The notes under the pieces: generated by a model
What the model was told of the DNA's origin: nothing
The model's database searches: none
Seen by the model: only the letters and a program-made list of their open reading frames with translations
Translations under genes and position numbers: made by a program
Source: Liolophura sinensis
Lineage: Eukaryota > Mollusca > Polyplacophora > Chitonida > Chitonidae
Assembly: GCF_032854445.1 (NCBI RefSeq)
Contig: NC_088298.1
Location: 19,117,976-19,181,975, forward strand
Direction of reading: 5' to 3'
Length of the DNA: 64,000 bases
Shown here: positions 1 through 33,107 of the stretch, piece by piece
How the letters are laid out: the number at the start of each line of letters is the position of its first letter
Position numbering within the stretch: the stretch's first letter is position 1

Positions 1-1548
1 TTTGTGCTCATGCCAGTTCAGCCCAAGGACACGTATGAAATAGAAATAGCACCTGGTAAAATCGAAACAATCACTACTTACCATGAAACTATTGAGATTA
101 CAGAAGAAATCACACCGGCTACTTGGGACAAAGACATTTCAGGTGTTCCTGTAGAAAGTAGACCGCATGAGCGGAAAACGAGCTTAGATAAGGATATTTT
201 TCAGGGTGATGAAGATCTGGAAGACAAACAGGAAGAAAAAGAGGAAAGCCCAGTACCTGTTCACGAAATTTTCGCGAAACCGGACGACACACCGTCTATT
301 TTTGAACGAGAACAGTATGAAGAAACTATTGAAATTGCACCTAAATCCACAGATACTCAGATCTGTCCTACTTCTGATGGAATTGTCTCGAAAGAAGAGT
401 TCAGTGTATCTGACATGGGCCCGGACCTCGGAGTTGTTGAAATGAAGCTTCGACCAGGGGAAGCTCAACTTGTTGTCACACATGACGAAAATTTAGAGAT
501 ATCCACAGCTTCGCAACCAGGTCTTCCGTCTACATTCAGGGAAAATTTGGTGATCATGCCTGTTCAACCCAAAGATACATTCGAAATTGAAATATCCCCG
601 GGTGAAATAGAAAAAATCACTACCTACCACGAAACAGTTGAGATAACAGAAGAGATCATAGATGTTTCAGATGAAGAAAGCTCCGTAGTACCTGAAGAGA
701 GAAAAAAGAGCTTAGTGGATGAAGAAACACAGCCAGTAAAACTGATTCCTGCCGATGTAGATGCAGAACTTCCACTAGAAAAAGACAAACTTCCTGCACA
801 AGACCTCACAGATGACTTGCGAGATGTTGTTCAGCGAGAAAGCTTTGAAGAAAGCATTGAAATTGGACCTAAATCGACAGATAAAAAGATCTTGCCTTCC
901 GACACTAGTGTTGTGCCTGAGGACGTGGTAAAAGATTCCGATGTACGTCCAGACTTCGGGGTCATTGAAGTAGAGGTTACACCAGGAAAATCTGAGCTTG
1001 TTATTACCCACGATCAAAGCTTAGAAATATCGCCAACTTCAGAACCAGAGGGTCCGTCCACTTTCCAGGAGAAATTGGTGCTTTTACCAGTCAAGCCTAA
1101 GGATACATATGAAATAGAAATTGCTCCTGGAAAGATTGAAACCATCACAACGTATCATGAAACTCTTGAGATCACAGAGGAAATTGTTGAAACTGCGTTT
1201 GATGAAGATATTCGACCAGTACCGATAAAGAGTAGCCCAGGCGATCATGAAAAGGATATGGACGATGAAAAAACCTTTCAACCTGAAGACTTGTCTTCCA
1301 TTGTTCAACAAGAGCGTTTTGAAGAAAGCATTGAAATAGCGCCCAAAACACCGAGCTCTCCAGCGACTTTGTTAGACACTCAGATGGTTTCTCAGGAACA
1401 CTTAAGAGTGTCTGACACACGTCCAGACTTTGGAGTTGTAGAAATGGAACTAATTCCAGGAAAATCTGAGGTAACAGTGAGTTACGATGAACGTCTAGAG
1501 ATATCCGGGACATTACAACCAGAAGGCCCATCAGTGTTTAAAGAACAG
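1..1548 (+). repeat. Older, diverged 'TTYHET' units of block A
   Basis: Three units of about 470-540 bp start near 7, 547 and 1081. Each opens with 'P[VE][QK]PK[DE][TS][YFI]EIEI' and continues through 'TTYHET', a '[SQR][FY]EE[ST]IEI[AG]P' module and a 'DFGV[IV]E' module. They are clearly related to the later 1.37-kb super-repeats but share far less nucleotide identity, so they look like ancestral copies at the edge of a younger amplification. Confidence 0.8.
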
Positions 1549-4500
1549 TTTGAAATTGTACCAGAGCAGCCCAGAGAATCAATCGAGATAGAAATTGCCC
1601 CTGGCAAAGTTGAAACCATTACAACTTACCATGAAACACTAGAAGTCACAGAAGAACTAAGCGGTGCTTCGTCAGATGAAGAGGACCTCGCTGAAGACAG
1701 AAAACCAGATGTCCAGGAAATGGTATTTGACGACGAAGATACACAATCCAAGAAATTGTCACCGACAGAAAAGGTGATTTCAAAAGATGACAAACCCATA
1801 GATACAAGTGTTGATGAAGACAGGCCTGATATTCCTGTCGATGTTTCTGAAGAATCTGTCATACCCGAAACAACATCTGACGAAATATCTACAGACATAG
1901 ATGAGAGAGAAACTTCTCCAAAACCAGAGGACGTGCCGTATATTGTTGGACCAGACCGATTTGAAGAAAGCATTGAAATTGCACCCAGAACGACTGATGT
2001 GCCCGTGTCACCTTCAGAAATTCAGATGAAATCCCAGGAGCATTTCAGAATCTCTGATTTACAACCAGAGTTTGGAATTGTGGAAATGGAGGTTACACCT
2101 GGAAAATCTGAAGTAACGATGACTTCCAATGAAAGCCTGGAGGTATCTGGGATATTGCAGCCAGAAGGACCGTCAATGTTTAAAGAACAATTTCAGATTG
2201 TTCCAGAACAACCAAAAGAAACAATCGAGATAGAAATTGCTCCTGGGCAGACTGAAACAATAACAACGTATCACGAAACCATTCAGATCACAGAGGAATT
2301 TGGTAGCAGTTCTTCAGATGAAGAAAAAATCGGGAAAGATCAATCGCCAACCCATTCCGAAGAACGTGAATCCAAAGACAGAGAAGACAAGACGAGTCCG
2401 GATTTTGGTGACAAGGAAGTAACAGAACAAACAAAGGAAATACAGTGGGAAAAACCTGAACATTCTGTAGACGAAGAGACTGATGTTAAAACTGTTCCAC
2501 TGGACGAACAGGATGTACCTTCCAGTCAGACTTTTACAGAAGAGATTGAAGTTTTGCGTACCCTGCCAGATGAAGGTGATGAACATGTGTTCACATTAAA
2601 AGAAGTCTCAACATACTCTGAGACGATTGAAGTGTCAAGAGCAACAATTATCAAGACAGGGACAAAGACAATGAAAGTTACCGAAGCGTGTGAAACATTC
2701 AGAAAAGCAATATCCTTTCCACAATCTGTTTCAGAGCAGCCTAAAGATATGATCGAAATAGAGATTTCTCCTGGAAAAGTTGAAACGATTACGACGTACC
2801 ATGAAACACTGGACATCACAGAAGAACTAAGCGATGCCTCATCGGATGAAGAAAGGCCCGGGGACACAAAACCAGAAGTGGAAAAAGTGACCGATGACGA
2901 AACGAAGCCAAAGAAGTTTGAAATTGTTCCAAAGCAGCCCAGAGAATCAATCGAGATAGAAATTGCCCCTGGCAAAGTTGAAACCATTACAACTTACCAT
3001 GAAACACTAGAAGTCACAGAAGAACTAAGCGGTGCTTCATCAGATGAAGAGGACCTCGCTGAAGACAGAAAACCAGACGTCCAGGAAATGGTTTTTGACG
3101 ACGAAGATACACAATCCAAGAAATTGTCACCGACAGAAAAGGTGATTTCAAAAGATGACAAACCCATAGATACAAGTGTTGATGAAGACAGGCCTGATAT
3201 TCCTGTCGATGTTTCTGAAGAATCTGTCATACCCGAAACAACATCTGACGAAATATCTACAGACATAGATGAGAGAGAAACTTCTCTGAAACCAGAGGAC
3301 ATGCCGTATATTGTTGGACCAGACCGATTTGAAGAAAGCATTGAAATTGCTCCCAGAACGACTGATGTGCCCGTGTCACCTTCAGAAATTCAGATGAAAT
3401 CCCAGGAGCATTTCAGAATCTCTGATTTACAACCAGAGTTTGGAATTGTGGAAATGGAGGTTACGCCTGGAAAATCTAAAGTAACGGTAACTTCCGATGA
3501 AAGTCTGGAGGTATCCGGGATATTGCAGCCAGAAGGACCGTCAGTGTTTAAAGAACAATTTCAGATTGTTCCAGAGCAACCGAAAGAAACAATCGAGATA
3601 GAAATTGCTCCTGGGCATACTGAAACAATAACAACGTATCACGAAACCATTCAGATCACAGAGGAATTTGGTAGCAGTTCTTCAGATGAAGAAAAAATCG
3701 GGAAAGATCAATCGCCAACCCATTCCGAAGAACGTAAATCCGAAGACAGGGAAGACAAGACGAGTTCGGATTTCGGTGACAAGGAAGTAACAGAACAAAC
3801 AAAGGAAATACAGTCGGAAAAACCTGAACATTCTGTAGACGAAGAGACTGATGTTAAAACTGTTCCACTGGACGAACAGGATGTACCTTCCAGCCAGACT
3901 TTTACAGAAGAGATTGAAGTTTTGCGTACCCTGCCAGATGAAGGTGATGAACATGTGTTCACATTAAAAGAAGTCTCAACATACTCTGAGACGATTGAAG
4001 TGTCAAGAGCAACAATTATCAAGACAGGGACAAAGACAATGAAAGTTACTGAAGCGTGTGAAACGTTCAGGAAAGCAATATCCTTTCCACAATCTGTTTC
4101 AGAGCAGCCTAAAGATATGATGGAAATAGAGATTTCTCCTGGAAAAGTTGAAACGATTACGACGTACCATGAAACACTGGACATCACAGAAGAACTAAGC
4201 GATGCCGCGTCGGATGAAGAAAGGCCCGAGGACACAAAACCAGAAGTGGAAAAGGTGACTTTTGACGATGACGAAACGAAGCCAAAGAAGTTTGAAATTG
4301 TTCCAGAGCAGCCCAGAGAATCAATCGAGATAGAAATTGCCCCTGGCAAAGTTGAAACCATTACAACTTACCATGAAACACTAGAAGTCACAGAAGAACT
4401 AAGCGGTGCTTCATCAGATGAAGAGGACCTCGCTGAAGACAGAAAACCAGACGTCCAGGAAATGGTTTTTGACGACGAAGATACACAATCCAAGAAATTG

Positions 4501-5526
4501 TCACCGACAGAAAAGGTGATTTCAAAAGATGACAAACCCATAGATACAAGTGTTGATGAAGACAGGCCTGATATTCCTGTCGATGTTTCTGAAGAATCTG
4601 TCATACCCGAAACAACATCTGACGAAATATCTACAGACATAGATGAGAGAGAAACTTCTCCAAAACCAGAGGACGTGCCGTATATTGTTGGACCAGACCG
4701 ATTTGAAGAAAGCATTGAAATTGCTCCCAGAACGACTGATGTGCCCGTGTCACCTTCAGAAATTCAGATGAAATCCCAGGAGCATTTCAGAATCTCTGAT
4801 TTACAACCAGAGTTTGGAATTGTGGAAGTGGAGGTTACGCCTGGAAAATCTGAAGTAACGGTGACTTCCGATGAAAGTCTGGAGGTATCCGGGATATTGC
4901 AGCCAGAAGGACCATCAATGTTTAAAGAACAATTTCAGATTGTCCCAGAACAACCGAAAGAAACAATCGAGATAGAAATTGCTCCTGGGCAGACTGAAAC
5001 AATAACAACGTATCACGAAACCATTCAGATCACAGAGGAATTTGGTAGCAGTTCTTCAGATGAAGAAAAAATCGGGAAAGATCAATCGCCAACCCATTCC
5101 GAAGAACGTAAATCCGAAGACAGGGAAGACAAGACGAGTCCGGATTTTGGTGACAAGGAAGTAACAGAACAAACAAAAGAAATACAGTCGGAAAAACCTG
5201 AACATTCTGTAGACGAAGAGACTGATGTTAAAACTGTTCCACTGGACGAACAGGGTGTACCTTCCAGCCAGACTTTTACAGAAGAGATTGAAGTTTTGCA
5301 TACCCTGCCAGATGAAGGTGATGAACATGTGTTCACATTAAAAGAAGTCTCAACATACTCTGAGACGATAGAAGTGTCAAGAGCAACAATTATCAAGACA
5401 GGGACAAAGACAATGAAAGTTACCGAAGCATGTGAAACATTCAGAAAAGCAATATCTTTTCCACAATCTGTTTCAGAACAGCCTAAAGATATGATGGAAA
5501 TAGAGATTTCCTCCTGGAAAAGTTGA
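1..5526 (+). CDS. Giant exon, block A: 'TITTYHET' acidic repeat region (open at left edge)
   Basis: This stretch is open in frame 1 from the first base, so the Met at position 4 is internal and the exon continues upstream of the window. It encodes about 1,840 residues rich in Glu, Asp, Ser, Thr, Pro, Val and Ile. Recurrent modules are 'IEIEIAPGKVETITTYHET', '[RQ][FY]EE[ST]IEIAP', 'P[DE]FG[IV]VEMEVTPGKSEV' and 'SSDEE'. Up to about 1548 the modules form diverged units spaced 470-540 bp; from 1549 they form near-identical 1.37-kb super-repeats. I recognise no folded catalytic domain. The likely role is an extended, elastic or scaffold segment of the titin-like protein. The stop at 5524-5526 follows one extra C in 'atttcctcctgg' compared with 'atttctcctgg' in the earlier copies, so it is probably not the true end of the protein. 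Confidence 0.85.
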   Translation, partial: FVLMPVQPKDTYEIEIAPGKIETITTYHETIEITEEITPATWDKDISGVPVESRPHERKTSLDKDIFQGDEDLEDKQEEKEESPVPVHEIFAKPDDTPSIFEREQYEETIEIAPKSTDTQICPTSDGIVSKEEFSVSDMGPDLGVVEMKLRPGEAQLVVTHDENLEISTASQPGLPSTFRENLVIMPVQPKDTFEIEISPGEIEKITTYHETVEITEEIIDVSDEESSVVPEERKKSLVDEETQPVKLIPADVDAELPLEKDKLPAQDLTDDLRDVVQRESFEESIEIGPKSTDKKILPSDTSVVPEDVVKDSDVRPDFGVIEVEVTPGKSELVITHDQSLEISPTSEPEGPSTFQEKLVLLPVKPKDTYEIEIAPGKIETITTYHETLEITEEIVETAFDEDIRPVPIKSSPGDHEKDMDDEKTFQPEDLSSIVQQERFEESIEIAPKTPSSPATLLDTQMVSQEHLRVSDTRPDFGVVEMELIPGKSEVTVSYDERLEISGTLQPEGPSVFKEQFEIVPEQPRESIEIEIAPGKVETITTYHETLEVTEELSGASSDEEDLAEDRKPDVQEMVFDDEDTQSKKLSPTEKVISKDDKPIDTSVDEDRPDIPVDVSEESVIPETTSDEISTDIDERETSPKPEDVPYIVGPDRFEESIEIAPRTTDVPVSPSEIQMKSQEHFRISDLQPEFGIVEMEVTPGKSEVTMTSNESLEVSGILQPEGPSMFKEQFQIVPEQPKETIEIEIAPGQTETITTYHETIQITEEFGSSSSDEEKIGKDQSPTHSEERESKDREDKTSPDFGDKEVTEQTKEIQWEKPEHSVDEETDVKTVPLDEQDVPSSQTFTEEIEVLRTLPDEGDEHVFTLKEVSTYSETIEVSRATIIKTGTKTMKVTEACETFRKAISFPQSVSEQPKDMIEIEISPGKVETITTYHETLDITEELSDASSDEERPGDTKPEVEKVTDDETKPKKFEIVPKQPRESIEIEIAPGKVETITTYHETLEVTEELSGASSDEEDLAEDRKPDVQEMVFDDEDTQSKKLSPTEKVISKDDKPIDTSVDEDRPDIPVDVSEESVIPETTSDEISTDIDERETSLKPEDMPYIVGPDRFEESIEIAPRTTDVPVSPSEIQMKSQEHFRISDLQPEFGIVEMEVTPGKSKVTVTSDESLEVSGILQPEGPSVFKEQFQIVPEQPKETIEIEIAPGHTETITTYHETIQITEEFGSSSSDEEKIGKDQSPTHSEERKSEDREDKTSSDFGDKEVTEQTKEIQSEKPEHSVDEETDVKTVPLDEQDVPSSQTFTEEIEVLRTLPDEGDEHVFTLKEVSTYSETIEVSRATIIKTGTKTMKVTEACETFRKAISFPQSVSEQPKDMMEIEISPGKVETITTYHETLDITEELSDAASDEERPEDTKPEVEKVTFDDDETKPKKFEIVPEQPRESIEIEIAPGKVETITTYHETLEVTEELSGASSDEEDLAEDRKPDVQEMVFDDEDTQSKKLSPTEKVISKDDKPIDTSVDEDRPDIPVDVSEESVIPETTSDEISTDIDERETSPKPEDVPYIVGPDRFEESIEIAPRTTDVPVSPSEIQMKSQEHFRISDLQPEFGIVEVEVTPGKSEVTVTSDESLEVSGILQPEGPSMFKEQFQIVPEQPKETIEIEIAPGQTETITTYHETIQITEEFGSSSSDEEKIGKDQSPTHSEERKSEDREDKTSPDFGDKEVTEQTKEIQSEKPEHSVDEETDVKTVPLDEQGVPSSQTFTEEIEVLHTLPDEGDEHVFTLKEVSTYSETIEVSRATIIKTGTKTMKVTEACETFRKAISFPQSVSEQPKDMMEIEISSWKS

Positions 5527-6950
5527 AACGATTACGACGTACCATGAAACACTGGACATCACAGAAGAACTAAGCGATGCCTCATCGGATGAAGGAAAGG
5601 CCCGAGGACCACAAAACCAAGAAGTGGAAAAAGGTGACTTTTGACGATGACGAAACGAAGCCAAAGAAGTTTGAAATTGTTCCAGAGCAGCCCAGAGAAT
5701 CAATCGAGATAGAAAATTGCCCCTGGCAAAGTTGAAAACCATTACAACTTACCATGAAACACTAGAAGTCACAGAAGAACTAAGCGGTGCTTCATCAGAT
5801 GAAGAGGACCTCGCTGAAGACAGAAAACCAGACGTCAGGAAATGGTTTTTTGACGACGAAGATACCACAATCCAAGAAATTGTCACCGACAGAAAAGGTG
5901 ATTTCAAAAGATGACAAACCCATAGATACAAGTGTTGATGAAGACAGGCCTGATATTCCTGTCGATGTTTCTGAAGAATCTGTCATACCCGAAACAACAT
6001 CTGACGAAATATCTACAGACATAGATGAGAGAGAACTTCTCCAAAACCAGAGGACGTGCCGTATATTGTTGGACCAGACCGATTTGAAGAAGCATTGAAA
6101 TTGCACCCAGAACAACTGATGTGCCCGGTGTCCACCTTCAGAAATTCAGATGAAATCCCAGGAGCATTTCAGAATCTCTGATTTACAACCAGAGTTTGGA
6201 ATTGTGGAAATGGAGGTTACGCCTGGAAAATCTGAAGTAACGGTGACTTCCGATGAAAGTCTGGAGGTATCCGGGATATTGCAGCCAGAAGGACCGTCAA
6301 TGTTTAAAGAACAATTTCAGATTGGTTCCAGAACAACCGAAAGAAACAATCGAGATAGAAATTGCTCCTGGGCAGACTGAAACAATAACAACGTATCACA
6401 AAACCATTCAGATCACAGAGGAATTTGGTAGCAGTTCTTCAGATGAAGAAAAAATCGGGAAGATCAATCGCCAACCCATTCCGAAGAACGTAAATCCGAA
6501 GACAGAGAAGACAAGACGAGTCCGGATTTTGGTGACAAGGAAGTAACAGAACAAACAAAGGAAATACAGTCGGAAAACCTGAACATTCTGTAGACGAAGA
6601 GACTGATGTTAAAACTGTTGCATTGGACGAACAGGATGTACCTTCCAGCCAGACTTTTACAGAAGAGATTGAAGTTTTGCATACCCTGCCAGATGAAGGT
6701 GATGAACATGTGTTCACATTAAAAGAAGTCTCAACATACTCTGAGACGATTGAAGTGTCAAGAGCAACAATTATCAAGACAGGGACAAAGACAATGAAAG
6801 TTACCGAAGCATGTGAAACATTCAGAAAAGCAATATCCTTTCCACAATCTGTTTCAGAACAGCCCAAAGATATGATGGAAATAGAGATTTCTCCTGGAAA
6901 AGTTGAAACGATTACGACTTACCATGAAACACTAGAAGTCACAGAACAAC
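1549..6950 (+). repeat. 1.37-kb super-repeat array, four copies (456-458 codons each)
   Basis: Using the codon for the Glu or Lys of 'P[EK]QPRESIEIEI' as anchor, copies begin at 1564, 2932, 4306 and 5685, giving spacings of 1368, 1374 and 1379 bp. The first two spacings are multiples of three; the third is not, because copy 4 carries single-base indels. Each copy holds three 'IEIEI[AS]PG..ET[IV]TTYHET' modules, three 'SSDEE'-like acidic serine clusters, one 'SYSET/STYSETIEVSRAT' module and one 'P.FGIVE' module. The copies are nearly identical at the nucleotide level, indicating recent tandem duplication or ongoing conversion. The array ends near 6950, where the sequence changes to the 45-residue type. 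Confidence 0.9.
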
Positions 6951-7260
6951 GTATAGGTGCCTACGAAGTTAAGCCTACTCCAGTTAGAAATTACAGATAC
7001 TCAGGAAGATATCACTAGAAATCTCTGAAACCATCAAAGAAACTCATAAAGAAGTAACAAGTGATGTTTGTGAAGAGATTCCGGATAAAATTCATCCTGC
7101 TGATGTTGACACTGTAGAAGAAATAACTACAGAAACCCAGGAAGATATCTCTGAAATCTCTGAAGCCCTTAAGGAAACTCCTGAAGAAGAAACAAGTGAA
7201 ATTGTCCAAGAGATTCCGGATAAAGCTCAGCTACTGAAGGGCGAACTGAAGAAGAAATTA
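5510..7260 (+). pseudogene. Frame-disrupted segment of the giant exon (copy 4 of the super-repeat and following units)
   Basis: The amino-acid pattern continues through this stretch but switches frame many times. Against copy 3, copy 4 has an extra base near 5510, 5594, 5609, 5620, 5632, 5713, 5735, 5850, 5865, 6127, 6133 and 6325, and lacks a base near 5837, 6035, 6090, 6461 and 6577. Two extra A residues lie near 6987 and 7016, and one base is missing near 7231. Most are in runs of A, C, G or T. Between the breaks the codons match the intact copies almost perfectly. I think this is uncorrected long-read consensus error inside a repeat rather than true decay, because 25 kb of intact frame follows. 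A real broken copy removed by splicing remains possible, though I see no convincing donor and acceptor pair around it. Confidence 0.75.
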
Positions 7261-7497
7261 TGACAGAAACACAGCAAGATATCACTGAAATCTATGAAAC
7301 CATTGGAGAAACACCTGAAGAAGTAATGAGTGAAGTTGCCAAAGAAAGTCCGGAGAAAGTTAAACCTAGCGAAGTTGAAGTGGAAGAAAAAATGACTAGA
7401 GAAACTCAAAAAGACACCACCGAAGTCTCTGAAACCATCAAAGAAACTCCCGAAGAAGTAATGAGTGAAGTTTTTGAAGAGGTTCCGAAAAAACCAA
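6951..7497 (+). repeat. Divergent 45-residue units upstream of block B
   Basis: About four units recur with a 135-bp period: the '(g)a(t/a)ac(t/c)ca(g/a)' anchors lie at 6996, 7132, 7266 and 7401, with 136- and 134-bp spacings explained by one inserted and one deleted base. The consensus 'TE[IV]S[EA].IKETPEEVMSEV' matches the register of the main 45-residue array of block C ('TEVSAEIEETTEDVTGEV'). These are therefore outlying, older copies of the block C repeat, separated from it by block B. Confidence 0.75.
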
Positions 7498-10400
7498 AAC
7501 AGTTTCCTGAGGAAGAAACTGCCTTTGAAGAGACAGTGGAAGTAACCAAAGAAATGGAAGAAATTCTAGAAGATGAAGTTACTCAAGAAACTTTCAAAGA
7601 TGAAATTGAAATCCAACCACAGCCTCAACCCAAACAGGAAGTTGTAGAGATCGAATTCAAACCAGAACAGCCTGCTGAGGAAGAAACCACTTTTGAACCA
7701 ACAGTTGAGATAACGAAAGAGATTGAAGAAACAATAGAGGAGGGGGAAGAAGAAACATTTACGGAAGTTATGGTACCTCAGCCTGGACTCGAAACTGTGG
7801 AATTTGAAATTGCACCATCACAAGATGAAACAGTGGAAACATTTAGGCAAACAATCAAAATCACACAATTTACTCAAGAAGCTAAAGAAGAGGAGATAAT
7901 GCCAGAACAGCCTGAGAAAGTATTTGAAGAAATAGATGAAACTCAACCTGAGGAAGTACTTGAGAGAAAGGCCCAGCCTCAACCAGACAGGGAAGTTGTG
8001 GAAGTTGAATTCAAAACACAACAGACATTTGAGGAAGAAACAACTGTTGAAAAAACAGTTGAAATGACTAAAGATGTGGAAGAAATTCCAGAAGATGAAT
8101 TGCCAGAGGAAACTTGCAAGGAGGAAATTGAAATCCCAGCACAAGCTCAACCAGAACAAGAAGTTGTAGAGATTGCATTCAAACCAGAACAGCCTCCTGA
8201 GGAAGAAACTACTGTGGAAGAGACAGTGGAAATAACCAAAGAAATGGAAGAAATTCCAGAAGATGAAGTTACTGAAGAAACTTTCAAAGAGGAAATTGAA
8301 ATCCAACCACAGCCTCAACCAGAAAAAGAAGTTGTAGAGATTCAATTCAAACCAGAACAGCCTGCTGAGGAAGAAACTAGCTTTGAACAAGCAGTTGAGA
8401 TAACAAAAGAGATTGAAGAAACAATAGAGGAGGGGGAAGAAGAAACATTTAAGGAAGAAATAGAACTTCAGCCTGAACGTGAAACTGTGGAATTTGAAAT
8501 TGCACCATCACAAGATGAAACAGTGGAAACATTTAGGCAAACAATCAAAATCACACAATTTACCAAAGAAGCTACAAAAGAGGAGATAATGCCAGAACAG
8601 CCTGAAGAAGTATTTGAAGAAATAGATGAAACTCAGCCTGAGGAGGTAGTTGAGGAAGAAGCTCAGTGTCTGCCAGAAAGGGAAGTTGTGGAAGTTGAAT
8701 TCAAACCACAACAGACTGTTGAGGAAGAAACCACTGTTGAAGAAACCATTGAAGTAACCAGTGATGTGGAAGAAATTCCAGAAGACGAATTGCCAGAGGA
8801 AAGCTTCAAAGAGGCAATTGAAATCCAACCACAACCTCAACCAGAAAAGGAAGTTGTAGAGATTGAATTCAAACCGGAACAGCCGGCTGAGGAAGAAAGC
8901 ACTTTTGAACAAACAGTTGAGATAACAAAAGAGATTGAAGAAACAATAGAGGAGGACGAAGAAGAAACATTTAAGGAAGAAATGGAACTTCAGCCTGAAC
9001 GTGAAACTGTGGAATTTGAAATTGCACCATCACAAGATGAAACAGTGGAAACATTTAGGCAAACAATCAAAATCACACAATTTACCAAAGAAGCTACAAA
9101 AGAGGAGATAATGCCAGAACAGCCTGAGAAAGTATTTGCAGAAATAGATCAAATTCAGTCTGAGGAAGTAGTTGAGGAAGAAGCCCAGCCTCAGCCAGTA
9201 AAGGAAGTTGTGGAAGTTAAATTCAAACCACAACAGACCGTTGAGGAAGGAACCACTGTGGAAGAAACCCTTGAAGTAACCAAAGATGTGGAAGAAATTC
9301 CAGAAGATGAATTTCCAGAGGAAAGCTTCAAAGAGGAAATTGAAATACACCCTCAGCCTCAACCAGAAAAGGAAGTTGTAGAGATTGAATTCAAACCAGA
9401 ACAGCCGGCTGAGGAAGAAAGTAGATTTGAAGAGACAGTGGAAGTAACCAAAGAGTTGGAAGAAATTCCAGAAGATGAAGTTACTGAAGAAACTTTCAAA
9501 GAGGAAATTGAAATCCAACCACAGCCTCAACCAGAAGAAGAAGTTGTAGAGATTGAATTCAAACCGGAACAGCCTGCTGAGGAAGAAACTACCTTTGAAG
9601 AGACAGTGGAAGTAACCAAAGAGGTGGAAGAAATTCCAGAAGATGAAGTTACTCAAGAAACCCTCAAAGAGGAAATTGAAATCCAACCACAGCCTCAACC
9701 AGAAAAAGAAGTTGTAGAGATTCAATTCAAACCAGAACAGCCGGCTGAGGAAGAAAGTAGATTTGAAGAGACAGTGGAAGTAACCAAAGAGGTGGAAGAA
9801 ATTCCAGAAGATGAAGTTACTCAAGAAACCTTCAAAGAGGAAATTGAAATCCAACCACAGCCTCAACCAGAAGAAGAAGTTGTAGAGATTGAATTCAAAC
9901 CGGAACAGCCTGCTGAGGAAGAAACTACCTTTGAAGAGACAGTGGAAGTAACCAAAGTGGTGGAAGAAATTCCAGAAGATGAAGTTACTCATAAAACCTT
10001 CCAAGAGGAAATTAAAATCCAACAGCCTCAGCCAGAAAAGGACATTGCAGAGATTGAATTCATTCCAGAACAGCCTGCTGAGGAAGAAACTACCTTTGAA
10101 GAGACAGTGGAAGTAACCAAAGAGGTGGAAGAAATTTTAGAAGATGAAGTTACTCAAGAAACCCTCAAAGAGGAAATTGAAATCCAACCACAGCCTCAAC
10201 CAGAAAAAGAAGTTGTAGAGATTCAATTCAAACCAGAAAAGCCTGCTGAGGAAGAAACCACTTTTGAACAAACGGTTGAGATAACAAAAGAGATTGAAGA
10301 AACAATAGATGGGGAGGAAGAAGGAACATTTAAGGAAGAAACAGAACTTCAGCCTGAACGTGAAACTGTGGAATTTGAAATTGCACCATCACAAGATCAA

Positions 10401-22400: not shown

Positions 22401-25400
22401 GAGGAATCTGCACAAGAGGCCGAGCTAGATGTAACACCGGTGAAACAACCTGAAATCAAACGTGAAGTGGAAGGAGAAGATGTGATTGAAGAATTGCAGC
22501 CTGAAGCTTCACTTGAAGAAGACACACTTGAAAAAGCAGAGATTATGACAAAAGAAGAAGTGGAAACTGAGGCTGATGTTTTATCTGAAGAAGAAAGCGG
22601 AGTTGAGGAAGTAGAGGCTGATATAGACTTCCCCGCAAAGGAGGAAATAGAGGCTGAAGTTGAGGTGGAATCGGAAGGAGAGGAAGAAGTTGAAGCTGAG
22701 TTAGAGGTATCTCCTCATATTGGTGCCTTACCTGAAGCTGAGGAATCTGCACAAGAGGCCGAGCTAGATGTAACCCCGGTGAAACAACCTGAAATCAAAC
22801 GTGAAGTGGAAGGAGGAGATGTGGTTGAAGAATTGCAGCCTGAAGCTTCACTTGAAAAAGCAGAGATTATGACAGAGGAAGAAGTGGAAACTGAGGCTGA
22901 TGTTTTATCTGAAGTAGAAAGCGGAGTTGAGGAAGTAGAGGCTGATATAGACTTCCCCGCAAAGGAGGAAATAGCGGCTGAAGTTGAGGTAGAATCGGAA
23001 GGAGAGGAAGAAGTTGAAGCTGAGTTAGATGTATCTCCTGATATTGGTGGCTTACCTGAAGCTGAGGAATCTGCACAAGAGGCCGAGCTAGATGTAACAC
23101 CGGTGAAACAACCTGAAATTAAACGTGAAGTGGTAGAAGATGTGGTTGAAGAATTGCAGCCTGAAGCTTCACTTGAAAAAGCAGAGATTATAACAGAGGA
23201 AGAAGTGGAAACTGAGGCTGATGTTTTATCTAAAGAAGAAAGCGAAGTTGAGGAAGTAGAAGCTGATATAGACTTCCCCACAAAGGAGGACATAGAGGCT
23301 GAAGTTGAGGTGGAATCGGAAGGAGAGGAAGAAGTTGAAGCTGAGTTAGATGTATCTCCTGATATTGGTGGCTTACCTGAAGCTGAGGAATCTGCACAAG
23401 AGGCCGAGCTAGATGTAACACCGGTGAAACAACCTGAAATTAAACGTGAAGTGGAAGAAGATGTGGTTGAAGAATTGCAGCCTGAAGCTTCACTTGAAAA
23501 AGCAGAGATTATAACAGAGGAAGAAGTGGAAACTGAGGCTGATGTTTTATCTAAAGAAGAAAGCGAAGTTGAGGAAGTAGAAGCTGATATAGACTTCCCC
23601 GCAAAGGAGGACATAGAGGCTGAAGTTGAGGTGGAATCGGAAGGAGAGGAAGAAGTTGAAGCTGAGTTAGAGGTATCTCCTGATATTGGTGCCTTACCTG
23701 AAGCTGAGGAATCTGCACAAGAGGCCGAGCTAGATGTAACCCCGGTGAAACAACCTGAAATCAAACGTGAAGTGGAAGGAGAAGATGTGGTTGAAGAATT
23801 GCAGCCTGAAGCTTCACTTGAAAAAGCAGAGATTATGACAGAGGAAGAAGTGGAAACTGAGGCTGATGTTTTATCTGAAGTAGAAAGCGGAGTTGAGGAA
23901 GTAGAGGCTGATATAGACTTCCCCGCAAAGGAGGAAATAGAGGCTGAAGTTGGTGTGGAATCGGAAGGAGAGGAAGAAGTTGAAGCTGAGTTAGAGGTAT
24001 CTCCTCATATTGGTGGCTTACCTGAAGCTGAGGAATCTGCACAAGAGGCCGAGCTAGATGTAACACCGGTGAAACAACCTGAAATCAAACGTGAAGTGGA
24101 AGAAGAAGATGTGGTTGAAGAATTGCAGCCTGAAGCTTCACTTGAAGAAGGCACACTTGAAAAAGCAGAGATTATAACAGAGGAAGAAGTAGATACTGAG
24201 ACTGATGTTTTATCTGAAGTAGAAAGCGGAATTGAGGAAGTAGAAGCTGATATAGACTTCCCCGCAAAGGAGGAAATAGAGGCTGAAGTTGAGGTGGAAT
24301 CGGAAGGAGAGGAAGAAGTTGAAGCTGAGTTAGAGGTATCTCCTCATATTGGTGCCTTACCTGAAGCTGAGGAATCTGCACAAGAGGCCGAGCTAGATGT
24401 AACACCGGTGAAACAACCTGAAATGAAACGTAAAGTGGAAGGAGAAGATGTGGTTGAAGAATTGCAGCCTGAAGCTTCACTTGAAGAACATACACTTGAA
24501 AAAGCAGAGATTATGACAGAGGAAGAAATAGAAACTGAGGCTGATGTTTTATCTGAAGTAGAAAGCGGAGTTGAGGAAGTAGAGGCTGATATAGACTTCC
24601 CTGCAAAGGAGGAAATAGAGGCTGAAGTTGAGGTGGAATCGGAAGGAGAGGAAGAAGTTGAAGCTGAGTTAGATGTATCTCCTGATATTGGTGCCTTACC
24701 TGAAGCTGAGGAATCTGCACAAGAGGCCGAGCTAGATGTAACACCGGTGAAACAACCTGAAATGAAACGTGAAGTGGAAGGAGAAGATGTGGTTGAAGAA
24801 TTGCAGCCTGAAGCTTCACTTGAAGAAGCAGAGATTATAACAGAAGCAGAAGTGGAGACTGAGGCTGATGTTTTATCTAAAGAAGAAAGCGAAGTTGAGG
24901 AAGTAGAAGCTGATATAGACTTCCCCGCAAAGGAGGAAATAGAGGCTGAAGTTGAGGTGGAATCGGAAGGAGAGGAAGAAGTTGAAGCTGAGTTAGATGT
25001 ATCTCCTCATATTGGTGGCTTACCTGAAGCTGAGGAATCTGCACAAGAGGCCGAGCTAGATGTAACCCCGGTGAAACAACCTGAAATTAAACGTGAAGTG
25101 GAAGGAGAAGATGTGGTTGAAGAATTGCAGCCTGAAGCTTCACTTGAAGAAGACACACTTGAAGAAGCAGAGATTTTGACAAAGGAAGAAGTGGAAACTG
25201 TATCTGGTGTTTTATCTGAAGAAGAAAGCGGAGTTGAGGAAGTAGAAGCTGATACAGACTTCCCCGCAATGGAGGAAATAGAGGCTGAAGTTGAGGTGGA
25301 ATCGGAAGGAGAGGAAGAAGTTGAAGCTGAGTTAGATGTATCTCCTCATATTGGTGGCTTACCTGAAGCTGAGGAATCTGCACAAGAGGCCGAGCTAGAT

Positions 25401-28400
25401 GTAACACCGGTGAAACAACCTGAAATCAAACGTGAAGTGGAAGGAGATGTGGTTGAAGAATTGCAGCCTGAAGCTTCACTTGAAGAAGCAGAGATTATAA
25501 CAGAGGAAGAAGTGGAAACTGTATCTGATGTTTTATCTGAAGTAGAAAGCGAAGTTGAGGAAGTAGAAGCTGATGTAGACTTCCCCGCAAAGGAGGAAAT
25601 AGAGGCTGAAGTTGGGGTGGAATCGGAAGGAGAGGAAGAAGTTGAAGCTGAGTTAGATGTATCTCCTCATGTTGGTGGCTTACCTGAAGCTGAGGAATCT
25701 GCACAAGAGGCCGAGCTAGATGTAACACCGGTGAAACAACCTGAAATCAAGCGTGAAGTGGAAGGAGAAGACGTGATTGAAGAATTGCAGCCTGAAGCTT
25801 CACTTGAAGAAGGCACACTTGAAGAAGCAGAGATTTTGACAAAGGAAGAAGTGGAAATTGTATCTGGTGTTTTGTCTGAAGAAGAAATCGGAGTTGAGGA
25901 AGTAGAAGTTGATTTAGACTTCACCGCAAAGGAGGAAATAGAGGCTGAAGTTGAGGTGGAATCAGAAGGAGAGGAAGAAGTTGAAGCTGAGTTAGATGTA
26001 TCTCCTCATATTGGTGGCTTACCTGAAGCTGAGGAATCTGCACAAGAGGCCGAGCTAGATGTAACACCAGTGAAACAACCTGAAATCAAACGTGAAGTGG
26101 AAGGAGAAGATGTGGTTGAAGAATTGCAGCCTGAAGCTTCACTTGAAGAAGCAGAGATTATAACAGATGAAGAAGTGGAAACTGAGGCTGATGTTTTATC
26201 TGAAGTAGAAAGCGAAGTTGAGGAAGTAGAAGCTGATATAGACTTCCCCACAAAGGAGGACATAGAGGCTGAAGTTGAGGTGGAATCGGAAGGAGAGGAA
26301 GAAGTTGAAGCTGAGTTAGAGGTATCTCCTCATATTGGTGCCTTACCTGAAGCTGAGGAATCTGCACAAGAGGCCGAGCTAGATGTAACACCGGTGAAAC
26401 AACCTGAAATCAAACGTGAAGTGGAAGGAGATGTGGTTGAAGAATTGCAGCCTGAAGCTTCACTTGAAGAAGCAGAGATTATAACAGAGGAAGAAGTCGA
26501 AACTGTATCTGATGTTTTATCTGAAGTAGAAAGCGAAGTTGAGGAAGTAGAAGCTGATGTAGACTTCCCCGCAAAGGAGGAAATAGAGGCTGAAGTTGGG
26601 GTGGAATCGGAAGGAGAGGAAGAAGTTGAAGCTGAGTTAGATGTATCTCCTCATGTTGGTGGCTTACCTGAAGCTGAGGAATCTGCACAAGAGGCCGAGC
26701 TAGATGTAACACCGGTGAAACAACCTGAAATCAAGCGTGAAGTGGAAGGAGAAGACGTGATTGAAGAATTGCAGCCTGAAGCTTCACTTGAAGAAGGCAC
26801 ACTTGAAGAAGCAGAGATTTTGACAAAGGAAGAAGTGGAAACTGTATCTGGTGTTTTGTCTGAAGAAGAAATCGGAGTTGAGGAAGTAGAAGTTGATTTA
26901 GACTTCACCGCAAAGGAGGAAATAGAGGCTGAAGTTGAGGTGGAATCAGAAGGAGAGGAAGAAGTTGAAGCTGAGTTAGATGTATCTCCTCATATTGGTG
27001 GCTTACCTGAAGCTGAGGAATCTGCACAAGAGGCCGAGCTAGATGTAACACCAGTGAAACAACCTGAAATCAAACGTGAATTGGAAGGAGAAGATGTGGT
27101 TGAAGAATTGCAGCCTGAAGCTTCTCTTGAAGAAGCAGAGATTATAACAGAGGAAGAAGTGGAAACTGAGGCTGATGTTTTATCTGAAGTAGAAAGCGAA
27201 GTTGAGGAAGTAGAAGCTGATATAGACTTCCCCGCAAAGGAGGACATAGAGGCTGAAGTTGATGTGGAATCGGAAGGAGAGGAAGAAGTTGAAGCTGAGT
27301 TAGAGGTATCTCCTCATATTGGTGCCTTACCTGAAGCTGAGGAATCTGCACAAGAGGCCGAGCTAGATGTAACACCGGTGAAACAACCTGAAATCAAACG
27401 TGAAGTGGAAGGAGATGTGGTTGAAGAATTGCAGCCTGAAGCTTTACTTGAAGAAGACACACTTGAAAAAGCAGAGATTATAACAGAGGAAGAAGTGGAA
27501 ACTGAGGCTGATGTTTTATCTGAAGAAGAAAGCGGAGTTGAGGAAGTAGAGGCTGATATAGACTTCCCCGCAAAGGAGGAAATAGAGGCTGAAGTTGATG
27601 TGGAATCGGAAAGAGAGGATGAAGTTGAAGCTGAGTTAGATGTATCTCCTCATATTGGTGGCTTACCTGAAGCTGAGGAATCTGCACAAGAGGCCGAGCT
27701 AGATGTAACACCAGTGAAACAACCTGAAATCAAACGTGATGTGGAAGATGTGGTTGAAGAATTGCAGCCTGAAGCTTCACTAGAAGAAGACACACTTGAA
27801 AAAGCAGAGATTATGACAGAGGAAGAAGTGGAAACTGAGGCTGATGTTTTATCTGAAGTAGAAAGCGGAGTTGAGGAAGTAGAGGCTGATATAGACTTCC
27901 CCGCAAAGGAGGAAATAGAGGCTGAAGTTGAGGTAGAATCGGAAGGAGAGGAAGAAGTTGAAGCTGAGTTAGATGTATCTCCTCATATTGGTGGCTTACC
28001 TGAAGCTGAGGAATCTGCACAAGAGGCCGAGCTAGATGTAACACCGGTAAAACAACCTGAAATCAAACATGAAGTGGAAGAAGAAGATGTGGTTGAAGAA
28101 TTGCAGCCTGAAGCTTCACTTGAAGAAGACACACTTGAAAAAGCAGAGATTATGACAGAGGAAGAAGTAGAAATTAAGGCTGATGTTTTATCTGAAGTAG
28201 AAAGCGGAGTTGAGGAAGTAGAGGCTGATATAGACTTCCCCGCAAAGGAGGAAATAGAGGCTGAAGTTGAGGTAGAATCGGAAGGAGAGGAAGAAGTTGA
28301 AGCTGAGTTAGATGTATCTCCTGATATTGGTGGCTTACCTGAAGCTGAGGAATCTGCACAAGAGGCCGAGCTAGATGTAACACCGGTGAAACAACCTGAA

Positions 28401-31400
28401 ATGAAACGTGAAGTGGAAGGAGATGTGGTTGAAGAATTGCAGCCTGAAGCTTCACTTGAAAAAGCAGAGATTATAACAGAGGAAGAAGTGGAAACTGTAT
28501 CTGATGTTTTATCTGAAGTAGAAAGCGAAGTTGAGGAAGTAGAAGCTGATGTAGACTTCACCGCAAAGGAGGAAATAGAGGCTGAAGTTGAGGTAGAATC
28601 GGAAGGAGAGGAAGAAGTTGAAGCTGAGTTAGAGGTATCTCCTCATATTGGTGGCTTACCTGAAGCTGAGGAATCTGCACAAGAGGCCGAGCTAGATGTA
28701 ACACCGGTAAAACAACCTGAAATCAAACGTGAAGTGGAAGAAGAAGATGTGGTTGAAGAATTGCAGCCTGAAGCTTCACTTGAGGAAGACACACTTGAAA
28801 AAGCAGAGATTATGACAGAAGAAGAAGTGGAAACTGAGGCTGATGTTTTATCTGAAGAAGAAAGCGGAGTTGAGGAAGTAGAAGCTGATATAGACTTCCC
28901 CGCAAAGGAGGAAATAGAGGCTGAAGTTGAGGTGGAATCGGAAGGAGAGGAAGAAGTTGAAGCTGTGTTAGATGTATCTCCTCATATTGGTGGCTTACCT
29001 GAAGCTGAGGAATCTGCACAAGAGGCCGAGCTAGATGTAACACCGGTGAAACAACCTGAAATCAAACGTGAAGTGGAAGAAGAAGATGTGGTTGAAGAAT
29101 TGCAGCCTGAAGCTTCACTTGAAGAAGACACACTTGAAAAAGCAGAGATTATGACAGAGGAAGAAGTGGAAACTGAGGCTGATGTTTTATCTGAAGTAGA
29201 AAGCGGAGTTGAGGAAGTAGAGGCTGATATAGACTTCCCCGCAAAGGAGGAAATAGAGGCTGAAGTTGAGGTAGAATCGGAAGGAGAGGAAGAAGTTGAA
29301 GCTGAGTTAGATGTATCTCCTCATATTGGTGGCTTACCTGAAGCTGAGGAATCTGCACAAGAGGCCGAGCTAGATGTAACACCGGTAAAGCAACCTGAAA
29401 TCAAACGTGATGTGGAAGAAGAAGATGTGGTTGAAGAATTGCAGCCTGAAGCTTCACTTGAAGAAGACACACTTGAAAAAGCAGAGATTATGACAGAGGA
29501 AGAAATAGAAAGTGAGGCTGATGTTTTGTCTGAAGAAGAAAGCGGAGTTGAGGAAGTAGAAGTTGATTTAGACTTCACCGCAAAGGAGGAAATAGAGGCT
29601 GAAGTTGAGGTGGAATCGGAAGGAGAGGGAGAAGTTGAAGCTGAGTTAGATGTATCTCCTCATGTTGGTGGCTTACCCGAAGCTGAGGAATCTGCACAAG
29701 AGGCCGAGCTAGATGTAACCCCGGTGAAACAACCTGAAATCAAACGTGAAGTGGAAGGAGAAGATGTGGTTGAAGAATTGCAGCCTGAAGCTTCACTTGA
29801 AGAAGCAGAGATTATAACAGAGGAAGAAGTGGAAACTGAGGCTGATGTTTTATCTGAAGTAGAAAACGAAGTTGAGGAAGTAGAAGCTGATATAGACTTC
29901 CCCACAAAGGAGGAAATAGAGGCTGAAGTTGATGTGGAATCGGAAGGAGAGGAAGAAGTTGAAGCTGAGTTATATGTATCTCCTGATATTGGTGGCTTAC
30001 CTGAAGCTGAGGAATCTGCACAAGAGGCCGAGCTAGATGTAACACCGGTGAAACAACCTGAAGTCAAACGTGAAGTGGAAGGAGAAGATGTGGTTGAAGA
30101 ATTGCAGCCTGAAGCTTCACTTGAAGAAGCAGAGATTATAACAGAGGAAGAAGTGGAAACTGTATCTGATGTTTTATCTGAAGAAGAAAGCGGAGTTGAG
30201 GAAGTAGAAGCTGATGTAGACTTCCCCACAAAGGAGGAAATAGAGGCTGAAGTTGAGGTAGAATCGGAAGGAGAGGAAGAAGTTGAAGCTGAGTTAGATG
30301 TATCTCCTCATATTGGTGGCTTACCTGAAGCTGAGGAATCTGCACAAGAGGCCGAGCTAGATGTAACACCGGTAAAACAACCTGAAATCAAACGTGAAGT
30401 GGAAGAAGAAGATGTGGTTGAAGAACTGCAGCCTGAAGCTTCACTTGAAGAAGACACACTTGAAAAAGCAGAGATTATAACAGAGGAAGAAGTGGAAACT
30501 GTATCTGATGTTTTATCTGAAGAAGAAAGCAGAGTTGAGGAAGTAGAGGCTGATATAGACTTCCCCGCAAAGGAGGACATAGAGGCTGAAGTTGGGGTGG
30601 AATCGGAAGGAGAGGAAGAAGTTGAAGCTGAGTTAGATGTATCTCCTCATATTGGTGGCTTACCTGAAGCTGAGGAATCTGCACAAGAGGCCGAGCTAGA
30701 TGTAACACCGGTAAAACAACCTGAAATGAAACGTGAAGTGGAAGGAGAAGATGTGGTTGAAGAATTGCAGCCTGAAGCTTCACTTGAAGAAGACACACTT
30801 GAAAAAGCAGAGATTATGACAGAGGAAGAAGTAGAAATTAAGGCTGATGTTTTATCTGAAGAAGAAAGCGTAGTTGAGGAAGTAGAGGCTGATATAGACT
30901 TCCCCGCAAAGGAGGAAATAGAGGCTGAAGTTGGTGTGGAATCGGAAGGAGAGGAAGAAGTTGAAGCTGAGTTAGAGGTATCTCCTCATATTGGTGGCTT
31001 ACCTGAAGCTGAGGAATCTGCACAAGAGGCCGAGCTAGATGTAACACCGGTGAAACAACCTGAAATCAAACGTGAAGTGGAAGGAGATGTGGTTGAAGAA
31101 TTGCAGCCTGAAGCTTCACTTGAAGATGAAGAGATTATAACAGAGGAAGAAGTGGAAACTGTATCTGATGTTTTATCTGAAGTAGAAAGCGAAGTTGAGG
31201 AAGTAGAAGCTGATGTGGACTTCCCCGCAAAGGAGGAAATAGAGGCTGAAGTTGGGGTGGAATCGGAAGGAGAGGAAGAAGTTGAAGCTGAGTTAGAGGT
31301 ATCTCCTCATATTGGTGGCTTACCTGAAGCTGAGGAATCTGCACAAGAGGCCGAGCTAGATGTAACACCGGTGAAACAACTTGAAATCAAACGTGAAGTG

Positions 31401-32420
31401 GAAGGAGATGTGGTTGAAGAATTGCAGCCTGAAGCTTTACTTGAAGAAGACACACTTGAAAAAGCAGAGATTATAACAGAGGAAGAAGTGGAAACTGTAT
31501 CTGATGTTTTATCTGACGAAGAAAGCGGAGTTGAGGAAGTAGAAGCTGATGTGGACTTCCCCGCAAAGGAGGAAATAGAGGCTGAAGTTGGGGTGGAATC
31601 GGAAGGAGAGGAAGAAGTTGAAGCTGAGTTAGAGGTATCTCCTCATATTGGTGGCTTACCTGAAGCTGAGGAATCTGCACAAGAGGCCGAGCTAGATGTA
31701 ACACCGGTAAAACAACCTGAAATCAAACGTGATGTGGAAGGAGATGTGGTTGAAGAATTGCAGCCTGAAGCTTTACTTGAAAAAGCAGAGATTATGACAG
31801 AGGAAGAAGTGGAAACTGAGGCTGATGTTTTATCTGAAGTAGAAAGCGAAGTTGAGGAAGTAGAAGCTGATATAGACTTCCCCGCAAAGGAGGAAATAGA
31901 GGCTGAAGTTGAGGTAGAATCGGAAGGAGAGGAAGAAGTTGAAGCTGAGTTAGAGGTATCTCCTCATATTGGTGGCTTACCTGAAGCTGAGGAATCTGCA
32001 CAAGAGGCCGAGCTAGATGTAACTCCGGTGAAACAACCTGAAATGAAACGTGAAGTGGAAGGAGATGTGGTTGAAGAATTGCAGCCTGAAGCTTCACTTG
32101 AAAAAGCAGAGATTATGACAGAGGAAGAAGTGGAAACTGAGGCTGATGTTTTATCTGAAGTAGAAAGCTTAGTTGAGGAAGTAGAAGTTGATATAGACTT
32201 CCCCGCAAAGGAGGAAATAGAGGCTGAAGTTGAGGTAGAATCGGAAGGAGAGGAAGAAGTTGAAGCTGAGTTAGATGTATCTCCTCATATTGGTGCCTTA
32301 CCTGAAGCTGAGGAATCTGCACAAGAGGCCGAGCTAGATGTAACCCCGGTGAAACAACCTGAAATAAAGCGTGAAGTGGAAGGAGAAGAAGTTGATAAAG
32401 CTGATGAAACTTGTGTTAAG
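7260..32420 (+). CDS. Giant exon, blocks B-D: acidic PEVK-like repeat region
   Basis: One uninterrupted frame runs for more than 25 kb and about 8,390 residues. The Met at 7260 is only the first in frame after a missing base near 7231, so it is not a real start; translation enters from upstream. The segment contains three arrays in order: Pro-Gln repeats (block B), 45-residue units (block C) and 107-116-residue units (block D). Composition is dominated by Glu with Val, Thr, Pro, Ala, Ile and Lys; Cys and Trp are nearly absent. This matches the PEVK or PEVT type of titin spring in general character, and I infer a long, highly charged, largely unfolded elastic element. The proposed exon end is 32420, after 'VDKADETCVK', with donor gtgatt in phase 0, which fits the phase-0 acceptor at 33108. 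Reading on into the intron would add a 32-residue tail ending at the TGA at 32517-32519. Confidence 0.88.
7498..10622 (+). repeat. Block B: Pro-Gln / 'FKPEQPAEEE' repeats, 168-bp unit plus longer composite units
   Basis: The core unit is 56 residues (168 bp). The anchor 'cagcctca' recurs near 9353, 9521, 9689, 9857, 10022 and 10190. Its features are 'QPQPQPEKEVVEI.FKPEQ', 'EEE[TS].FE[EQ]TVE[VI]TKE' and 'EEIPEDEVT'. A second module, 'SQDETVETFRQTIKITQFT', recurs near 7801, 8491, 9013 and 10372 and makes longer composite units. The shared core of aromatic-x-[EQ]-T-[VI]-x-[VI]-T resembles the 'TYHETLEVT' core of block A, suggesting common ancestry. The alternation of Pro-Gln stretches with acidic segments suggests an extended chain. 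Confidence 0.88.
13970..15320 (+). repeat. 675-bp (five-unit) higher-order duplication in block C
   Basis: The sequences starting near 13970 and near 14645 run in parallel with an offset of 675 bp, which is five 45-residue units. Both contain the ordered series 'EFV[AV]PEEVQPSEIETEETQ', then an 'IGEMD'- or 'ICEMD'-type unit, then several 'EAPEEVQPSDIEAEETKPKE' units. This marks a recent block duplication by unequal exchange. Confidence 0.75.
15181..17340 (+). repeat. 1080-bp (eight-unit) higher-order tandem duplication in block C
   Basis: The block at about 15181-16260 is repeated at 16261-17340 with an exact 1080-bp offset, or eight 45-residue units, and only scattered substitutions. For example, the 60 bases starting at 15361 and at 16441 are identical. 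Matching order of the two unit flavours confirms a single block duplication rather than unit-by-unit growth. Confidence 0.88.
20041..32390 (+). repeat. Block D: 38 tandem copies of a 107-116-residue acidic unit
   Basis: The anchor 'ca/gatattggtg' occurs 38 times, from about 20122 to 32287, with spacings mostly of 318-345 bp. Each unit contains 'SP[HD][IV]G[GA]LPEAEESAQEAEL', then 'DVTPVKQPEIKREVE', then 'DVVEELQPEASLEE', then '[EK]EEVE[TI]', then 'DFPAKEEIEAEV.VESEGEEE'. Length differences come mainly from presence or absence of a short 'EDTLEK'-type insert and of 'GE' before 'DVVEEL'. The copy between anchors 22093 and 22375 is only 282 bp because it lacks the 'TPVKQPEIKREV' segment. The 'PEAEESAQEAEL' part is almost invariant even at the DNA level. 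The unit is strongly acidic with one basic patch per period. Confidence 0.93.
25345..27312 (+). repeat. 984-bp (three-unit) higher-order duplication in block D
   Basis: The three-unit block at 25345-26328 is repeated at 26329-27312 with an exact 984-bp offset. Both copies share rare variants: 'SPHVGGLP', 'AEILTKEEVE', 'SGVLSEEEIGVEEVEVDLDF' and 'DFTAKEE'. The two differ at only a few positions, so this is one of the youngest duplications in the array. Confidence 0.88.
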
Positions 32421-33107
32421 GTGATTGTCTTAGATGTTTGTAAAAAGTTTACTACTAATTCGAAAGTTAGATCAATTAATATCATAGAAATTTATATACA
32501 ATCAGTTATGAGCATCTGATTTCTATTATTCAGTTATTTTGTTTAAATTCTGCAGAATGGGCGATAGAAAAGGAAAGATTTAGACCCCAAAAACTAAAAT
32601 ACGTCTCTTGCAGAATACAAGAATGTTTTATGACTTTTAATTGTTAAGAATTTTCTTGTGATTTTTTTTAAATTAGATAACTTATCCCTCTTCAGCATTG
32701 CTTTATCTTTTTTTGTGGCTATTATAATTTGTTTGACATTTCATTTAATCAGGAAAGTTTTTGTCCTTGTCGCGATTACAAAGACGCGCGCCGTAGCGAA
32801 AGAAGCGAAAAGTGGATTAAACTGATTCAAACCGTTCTCCTTTTCCCTTTTCCCCCGACCTCGTTTGTTAGAATTTAGTTTTAGAAATCTGCATGATTCC
32901 TATTCTGCTTGGGGTTTTGTTTCTTTGACCTATTTGTGAATGACTCTATGACAATATACATTCTATTTGAGGTCTCTGAAAGAAAGATTAATACTTTTGA
33001 TCTAAAGGGATCACATTTACATTTAGTTATCCATCAGTTATCTAAAAATAAATTGGCAAAATATTTTAAAGAGTTTATAAATGTATGTACCGTCTTTTTC
33101 TTCTCAG
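32421..33107 (+). other. Intron after the giant exon
   Basis: This phase-0 intron of 687 bp starts with gtgatt and ends with 'tttttcttctcag'. It is AT-rich, in abrupt contrast to the purine-rich exon before it. I see no repeat or coding signal in it apart from the short read-through tail noted for the giant exon. Confidence 0.7.

Follow-up and report, generated by a model that had tools for sequence, protein, structure and literature searches.

A putative 38.5-kb internal exon encoding the PEVK-type spring of a chiton titin

The window analysed here is a stretch of 64,000 nucleotides from the chiton Liolophura sinensis (NC_088298.1, here C4, positions 19117976-19181975), at the start of which lies a long block of in-frame coding repeats. 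We conclude that this block is probably the central PEVK-type spring of a chiton titin (connectin), carried by a single internal exon some 38.5 kb long between phase-0 introns. Protein segments of a PEVK-like type are already known; what would be new is the size of the exon and the undivided way in which the segment is encoded.

Results

An open frame of giant length between phase-matched splice sites

Two stop-free frames were found on the + strand when measured from stop to stop, one at 1-5526 (1,841 amino acids, open at the window edge) and one at 7224-32519 (8,431 amino acids). The second of these agrees with an initial annotation of the stretch, which had described an open frame of more than 25 kb at 7260-32420. 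The frame of 1-5526 runs on upstream of the window, and the whole open reading frame extends from -6335 to 5523 (3,953 amino acids; negative coordinates denote upstream sequence on the same contig, of which 50 kb was taken). Between 7224 and 32420 there are no stops in the sense frame, compared with 560 and 1,221 in the other two + frames, and when the exon was shuffled 100 times with dinucleotides preserved, the longest + frame was 206 amino acids.

The best in-phase acceptor for the giant exon is at -6104 (C4:19111871), and the PEVK-rich frame preceding it ends at a donor after -7294, in phase 0 by a manual count. For the 3' end of the coding sequence the best position is 32420, where the donor GTGATT follows in phase 0 and joins, again in phase 0, the acceptor TTCTTCTCAG directly before 33108, which opens an Ig exon. 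Between these phase-matched sites the frame is uninterrupted, with a reservation for a frameshifted patch at 5.5-7.2 kb. In the assembly the exon would measure 38,525 bp (C4:19111871-19150395; window -6104 to 32420), or about 12,840 codons; division by three leaves a remainder of 2, as expected if the patch holds net errors. The initial annotation had proposed a single exon of more than 32 kb, continuing to the window edge through sequence broken by single-base shifts. The open frame, the matching phases and the small number of acceptors argue for a single exon, but its size was underestimated (about 38.5 kb, not 32 kb); likewise, the frame does reach and pass the window edge, but the shifts are limited to about 5,510-7,235, and 1-5,510 is clean.

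Splice signals within the exon

We found no donors of the form MAGGTRAG in the 38.5-kb exon, as against 3 in the 31.6 kb downstream and 7.1 in dinucleotide shuffles, and likewise no AGGTRRG donors (7 downstream, 16.2 in shuffles). When acceptors were required to have at least 12 pyrimidines in the 14 positions before YAG, a single one was seen in the exon (the AG ending at -26), compared with 14 downstream and 1.9 in shuffles; the purine content of the exon strand is 63.9%. The earlier statement that no intron with plausible splice sites interrupts the block holds for strict donors and, with that one site excepted, for good acceptors, but the weak donor core GGTRAG recurs 58 times in the 3' part (0 in the 5' part). 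Selection against donors as a means of keeping the exon intact was considered and dropped, as strict donors are absent while GGTRAG is in excess, and fixed sites within the repeats dominate both donor counts. From the genomic signals, internal splicing is likely to be absent, and the exon would be included constitutively as one piece. If so, a purine-rich strand with almost no polypyrimidine acceptors may explain how so large an exon stays whole.

Composition of the predicted product

Translation of both frames gave E/V/T/P-rich repeats, with P+E+V+K making up 46.3% of the 5' part and 54.7% of the 3' part and a net charge per residue of -0.222 and -0.321, respectively. By the PEVK rule taken from PMC12063666 (windows of 250 amino acids, 40%), all 8,150 windows of the 3' part and 2,494 of 3,627 in the 5' part score as PEVK, whereas an exon with three Ig domains, used as a control, gave 0 of 31. 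Five pieces of the exon were compared with Pfam and no family had a stretch that passed on its own; the PPAK motif family, which would mark PEVK of the vertebrate type, was not listed for these pieces at E values up to 0.01. DUF3015 reached 39.7 bits in window 1-5523 (whole-protein cut-off 25) with no single stretch passing, and we took this, together with the other families, all below cut-off, to be an effect of composition. Structure models had a mean predicted local distance difference test score of 59.6 for the unit of array B (24 rows; see Table 1 for the arrays) and 31.3 for the 456-amino-acid unit (5 rows), that is, unstructured or of very low confidence; such models are no proof of disorder, and they reveal no fold either. 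The product should be a mostly disordered chain.

Selection on the repeat units

Nei-Gojobori ratios of non-synonymous to synonymous substitution rates (dN/dS) between repeat copies were 0.18 for an array of 59-amino-acid units (9 of 10 intervals, one of double length being dropped), 0.23 for the 456-amino-acid units (first three copies, 330 amino acids each) and 0.16 for the 56-amino-acid units of the upstream exon (18 of 25 intervals, with 7 longer ones dropped). Array A gave 0.50 (65 units, those off the 45-amino-acid lattice being dropped), with out-of-frame controls of 0.69 and 1.55. Neither array A nor array B contains a stop, compared with means of 17.0 and 13.9 when substitutions were placed at random, and none of 2000 such simulations for either array reached zero stops. 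The 30 indel differences within array B are all multiples of three; this was dropped as coding evidence, as the copies were aligned as translated sequence and the pattern follows from the open frame, so that it is not separate evidence.

The block lies in a titin-like locus

I-set Ig matches were found on the + strand along C4:19.000-19.36 Mb (best 150 of 786 candidates), and profiles trained on the locus gave 122 Ig and 50 Fn3 matches across C4:18,996,000-19,283,999, some of them half-domains. Strings of I-set Ig domains flank the block on both sides; after the I-band part come the 50 Fn3 matches (C4:19.212-19.269 Mb, same strand) and then the exons of a titin-family kinase (approximately C4:19.2703-19.2729 Mb). 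The titin-like spring of the initial annotation is borne out by this context, since the same-strand Ig exons on either side, including one whose best match in the PDB is titin, the Fn3 region and a kinase of titin/twitchin type accompany a block that satisfies the PEVK rule. A single transcript would run across the locus.

A kinase on another contig (C6:69224500-69229500) scored 449.7 bits to Aplysia twitchin, compared with 263.5 bits for the C4 kinase. As the C6 kinase scores higher, we take C6 to carry the twitchin gene and C4 the titin, and the chiton therefore appears to have a twitchin plus a separate titin locus with Fn3 and kinase. The C4 locus shares its type of kinase with twitchin and projectin, but it was rejected as either of them, the kinase closest to molluscan twitchin being on C6. 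Obscurin was likewise rejected for this locus: of 43 RhoGEF matches none lies at C4:19.0-19.4 Mb, the nearest on C4 being at 15429069, in another Ig cluster.

Reliability of the assembly

The assembly matches the one described for the chiton Liolophura japonica as 632 scaffolds totalling 609.5 Mb, built with hifiasm from 14x HiFi reads with a mean length of 8,347 bp (PMC11068029). Within the exon the longest exact repeat is 354 bp. We also took 31 windows of the exon, each one mean read in length and spaced every 1 kb, and their best-scoring off-diagonal alignments reached no more than 97.5% identity, with values of 84.8-93.3% for arrays A and B. The divergence between repeat copies should be sufficient for HiFi reads to be assigned to their places, so that the block is unlikely to have been grossly expanded or collapsed.

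The patch at 5.5-7.2 kb, which is mainly the fourth copy of the unit of about 1.37 kb, was aligned to its sister copies with indels at alignment ends set aside, as was done for both control alignments. We counted 12 internal indels in it, of which 9 are homopolymer slips; mismatches numbered 50 over 1,425 columns. Sister-against-sister controls had 33 mismatches in 1,338 columns and 25 in 1,175, with no internal frame-breaking indel. A second frameshifted patch was seen upstream, at about -31,863 to -31,494.

Discussion

Alternative explanations

Several observations weigh against reading the block as one intact titin exon. The acceptor at -6104 is weak (AAAG), and a site at -5953 has an equal score but is out of phase. 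Purine-rich composition alone accounts for the scarcity of acceptors, as the count in shuffles indicates, and the 58 GGTRAG cores of the 3' part exceed the 17.2 expected when synonymous codons are shuffled. The PEVK rule is lenient, as a 691-amino-acid frame with two Ig matches passes in 442 of 442 windows. For array B dN/dS is 0.81 (37 units), with out-of-frame controls of 0.67 and 1.66; the reading one base off gives the lower value, and dN/dS does not favour the sense frame there. Array B has been kept open, yet with little constraint on its residues. The C4 kinase matches twitchin (1kob, 263.5 bits) better than titin (1tki, 195 bits). The mismatch rate of the patch is somewhat above both controls, although its frameshifts, mostly homopolymer slips that are absent from the sisters, look like uncorrected read error. 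Finally, the single exon is supported by genomic sequence rather than by RNA.

A potential explanation that would keep the block as coding titin is that splicing within it removes repeats in frame, at least in certain tissues, and leaves few or no full 38.5-kb transcripts. The recurrent GGTRAG cores and the one good acceptor-like site at -26 would allow this, and the PEVK exons of fly sallimus (sls) are reported to be alternatively spliced, there as whole exons (PMC12063666). We consider it unlikely, as strict donors are absent and good acceptors number only one, and coding repeats run through the entire block in a single frame, in which no intron with stops is seen. Nearly as much weight, and still little, goes to the possibility that the repeat blocks were expanded or collapsed in assembly and that the true exon is much shorter or longer. 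The mean read is shorter than array A (9.4 kb) and array B (12.3 kb), coverage is 14x, and the two frameshifted patches point to it being thin in places; however, the longest exact repeat is far below read length, a read laid at its best other place would differ by at least 2.5% over the best-matching stretch and by 6.7-15.2% within arrays A and B, and the block contains no N.

The patch might also be real, either cutting the chain into two coding parts (a 5' part to about 5.5 kb and a 3' part reached through another start or splice) or marking a broken allele. The frame of the assembly does change between 5,510 and 7,235, but this reading is improbable given that three-quarters of the internal indels are homopolymer slips of which the sister copies have none, and that the flanking frames are open for 11.6 kb and 25.2 kb. 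Least probable by far is that the block belongs to some other gene with a giant exon, of ankyrin or MAP1/Futsch type, that merely lies among Ig exons. Neuronal ankyrins do have giant exons, but here I-set Ig exons stand on both sides in the same orientation and matching phase, with Fn3 and kinase beyond, although no search was aimed at ankyrin or MAP1 domains. We conclude that a titin spring in one internal exon remains the best account of the block.

Comparison with known titins and giant exons

Like the PEVK region of vertebrate titin, the chiton block is flanked by Ig strings, is made of P/E/V/K-rich repeats of disordered appearance and belongs to a gene with Fn3 domains and a kinase. The vertebrate region, in contrast, is given as about 70% P+E+V+K (PMC12241362) and is divided among many small exons, whereas the chiton chain is 46-55%, acidic rather than P/K-rich, and would come from a single exon of some 38.5 kb. 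The initial comparison with vertebrate PEVK, based on exon number, is fair, and the acidic character can be added to it. The chiton exon would be more than twice the size of the largest human TTN exon, reported as 17,106 bp (PMC12198301). Among protostomes, Drosophila sallimus resembles it in having large exons of PEVK repeats, exons 31 and 32; the fly PEVK has about 7.5-fold fewer residues there and these two exons are alternatively spliced, and exon 32, of about 1,700 amino acids, is reported to set titin and sarcomere length, deletion of this PEVK exon shortening I-band titin by about 0.5 µm and the sarcomere by about 1.5 µm (PMC12063666). Mussel twitchin is described with 24 Ig domains, 15 Fn3 domains and a small PEVK-like domain (PMC12040844). 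Among the papers listed by searches of open-licence PMC texts on exon size and on mollusc or chiton titin, no title or abstract opening described an exon of comparable size or a chiton titin.

Very large single coding exons are also known from MUC16 (largest exon about 21.7 kb) and from neuronal ankyrins (giant exon about 6-8 kb), which belong to different families. In our judgement the odds are even that the 38.5-kb internal exon is the largest coding exon recorded to date in an animal and lies in a molluscan titin locus that encodes its spring in a few giant exons, so that spring length would change by germ-line tandem-repeat number and not, as in vertebrates, by choice among many small exons.

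Proposed origin and function

The arrays suggest that in-frame coding units of 45, 56, 59, about 110 and about 456 amino acids were duplicated in tandem and so enlarged the exon. The result would be a long acidic chain of about 12,840 residues, with a net charge of about -0.22 to -0.35 per residue, held between Ig strings, that would behave as an entropic spring swollen by its charge. Taking 0.35 nm for each residue (PMC12063666), we obtain a contour length of about 4.5 µm for it, and a longer spring might suit muscles with long I-bands.

Were the reading correct, an internal exon more than twice the size of the largest in human titin would be included as one piece, a case at the limits of exon recognition, and spring length in this titin would depend on the number of tandem repeats. 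It is presented as an open question (PMC12198301) whether the I-band and A-band titins of bilaterians have undergone a split or a fusion, and a separate twitchin in the same genome, with Fn3 and kinase at the titin locus, would bear on it.

Other features of the locus and assembly

The features of the window and the other PEVK frames of the locus are listed in Table 1. Another giant PEVK exon, reaching about 15.7 kb at most, was seen at C4:19083899-19099656 (window -34076 to -18319) and is open except for the small upstream frameshifted patch noted above. The PEVK frames of the locus and the giant exon together amount to about 22,300 residues, which is an upper bound, as intron ends and Ig domains may be included.

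Table 1. Coordinates of the features described (window positions unless C4 is given)
Feature	Position	Strand	Evidence or remark
Giant exon, 5' part in window	1-5525	+	Open frame -6335 to 5523; acceptor -6104
Giant exon, 3' part, 8,399 codons without stop	7224-32420	+	Open frame, stop counts
GT-AG intron after giant exon, 687 bp	32421-33107	+	Phase 0 at either end
Following exon, with short linker and beginning of I-set Ig domain	33108-33268	+	I-set 3.6e-8 for 33081-33269; 3' end by eye
Frameshifted patch	5510-7235	+	Indels relative to sister copies
Four tandem copies of ~1.37-kb (~456-amino-acid) coding unit	1579-7020	+	Starts 1579, 2947, 4321, 5700
168-bp (56-amino-acid) E/P/Q-rich repeats	7977-10302	+	Tandem Repeats Finder rows 7977-8421 and 9186-10302
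Array A, ~70 copies of 135-bp (45-amino-acid) unit	10621-20046	+	
Array B, ~37 copies of ~324-339-bp unit	20045-32389	+	38 anchors, 37 units
Open frame with I-set Ig domain(s)	35157-35681	+	I-set 1.2e-30
Exon with three I-set Ig domains	56865-57704	+	PDB best match titin, second myosin-binding protein C
Other PEVK frame	C4:19053949-19055922		658 amino acids
Other PEVK frame with Ig	C4:19057744-19063524		1,927 amino acids
Other PEVK frame with Ig	C4:19075407-19080554		1,716 amino acids
Other PEVK frames	C4:19083899-19086112 and 19086481-19099656		738 and 4,392 amino acids

Synteny of the connectitin type, reported as SESTD1/CCDC141-type genes (SEC14, spectrin) lying upstream (PMC12198301), was also looked for: there was no spectrin match on C4 among the 60 matches listed (best 150 of 201 candidates), and no CRAL_TRIO_2 match on C4 among those listed (3 of 12). 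Within the Fn3 region, C4:19229373-19256240 holds 37 consecutive Fn3 matches with no Ig between them at the threshold used, whereas vertebrate titin has Ig-Fn3 super-repeats. The run includes a 200-N scaffold gap at 19231295-19231494. The other Ig/Fn3/kinase cluster, at C4:15.39-15.54 Mb, is a candidate obscurin, as it includes the RhoGEF match mentioned above. A further kinase on the same strand (C4:19354846-19355208) has MYLK4 as its best PDB match and possibly belongs to a neighbouring MYLK-like gene.

Elsewhere in the assembly, contig C99 has COX1 seven times at intervals of about 15.5 kb and represents mitochondrial genomes joined head to tail that were left in; the gene order at the mitochondrial locus is ND3-ND2-COX1-COX2, which fits a mollusc, and ARAGORN returned no match there. 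An open frame at window -9133 to -8807, lying upstream of the giant exon and between Ig exons, contains what we take to be an IQ-like motif (AVIKIQAAFRGYKVQ). A minisatellite also lies between Ig exons, at window 51563-52921, with 14.5 copies of a 93-bp unit and 95% matches.

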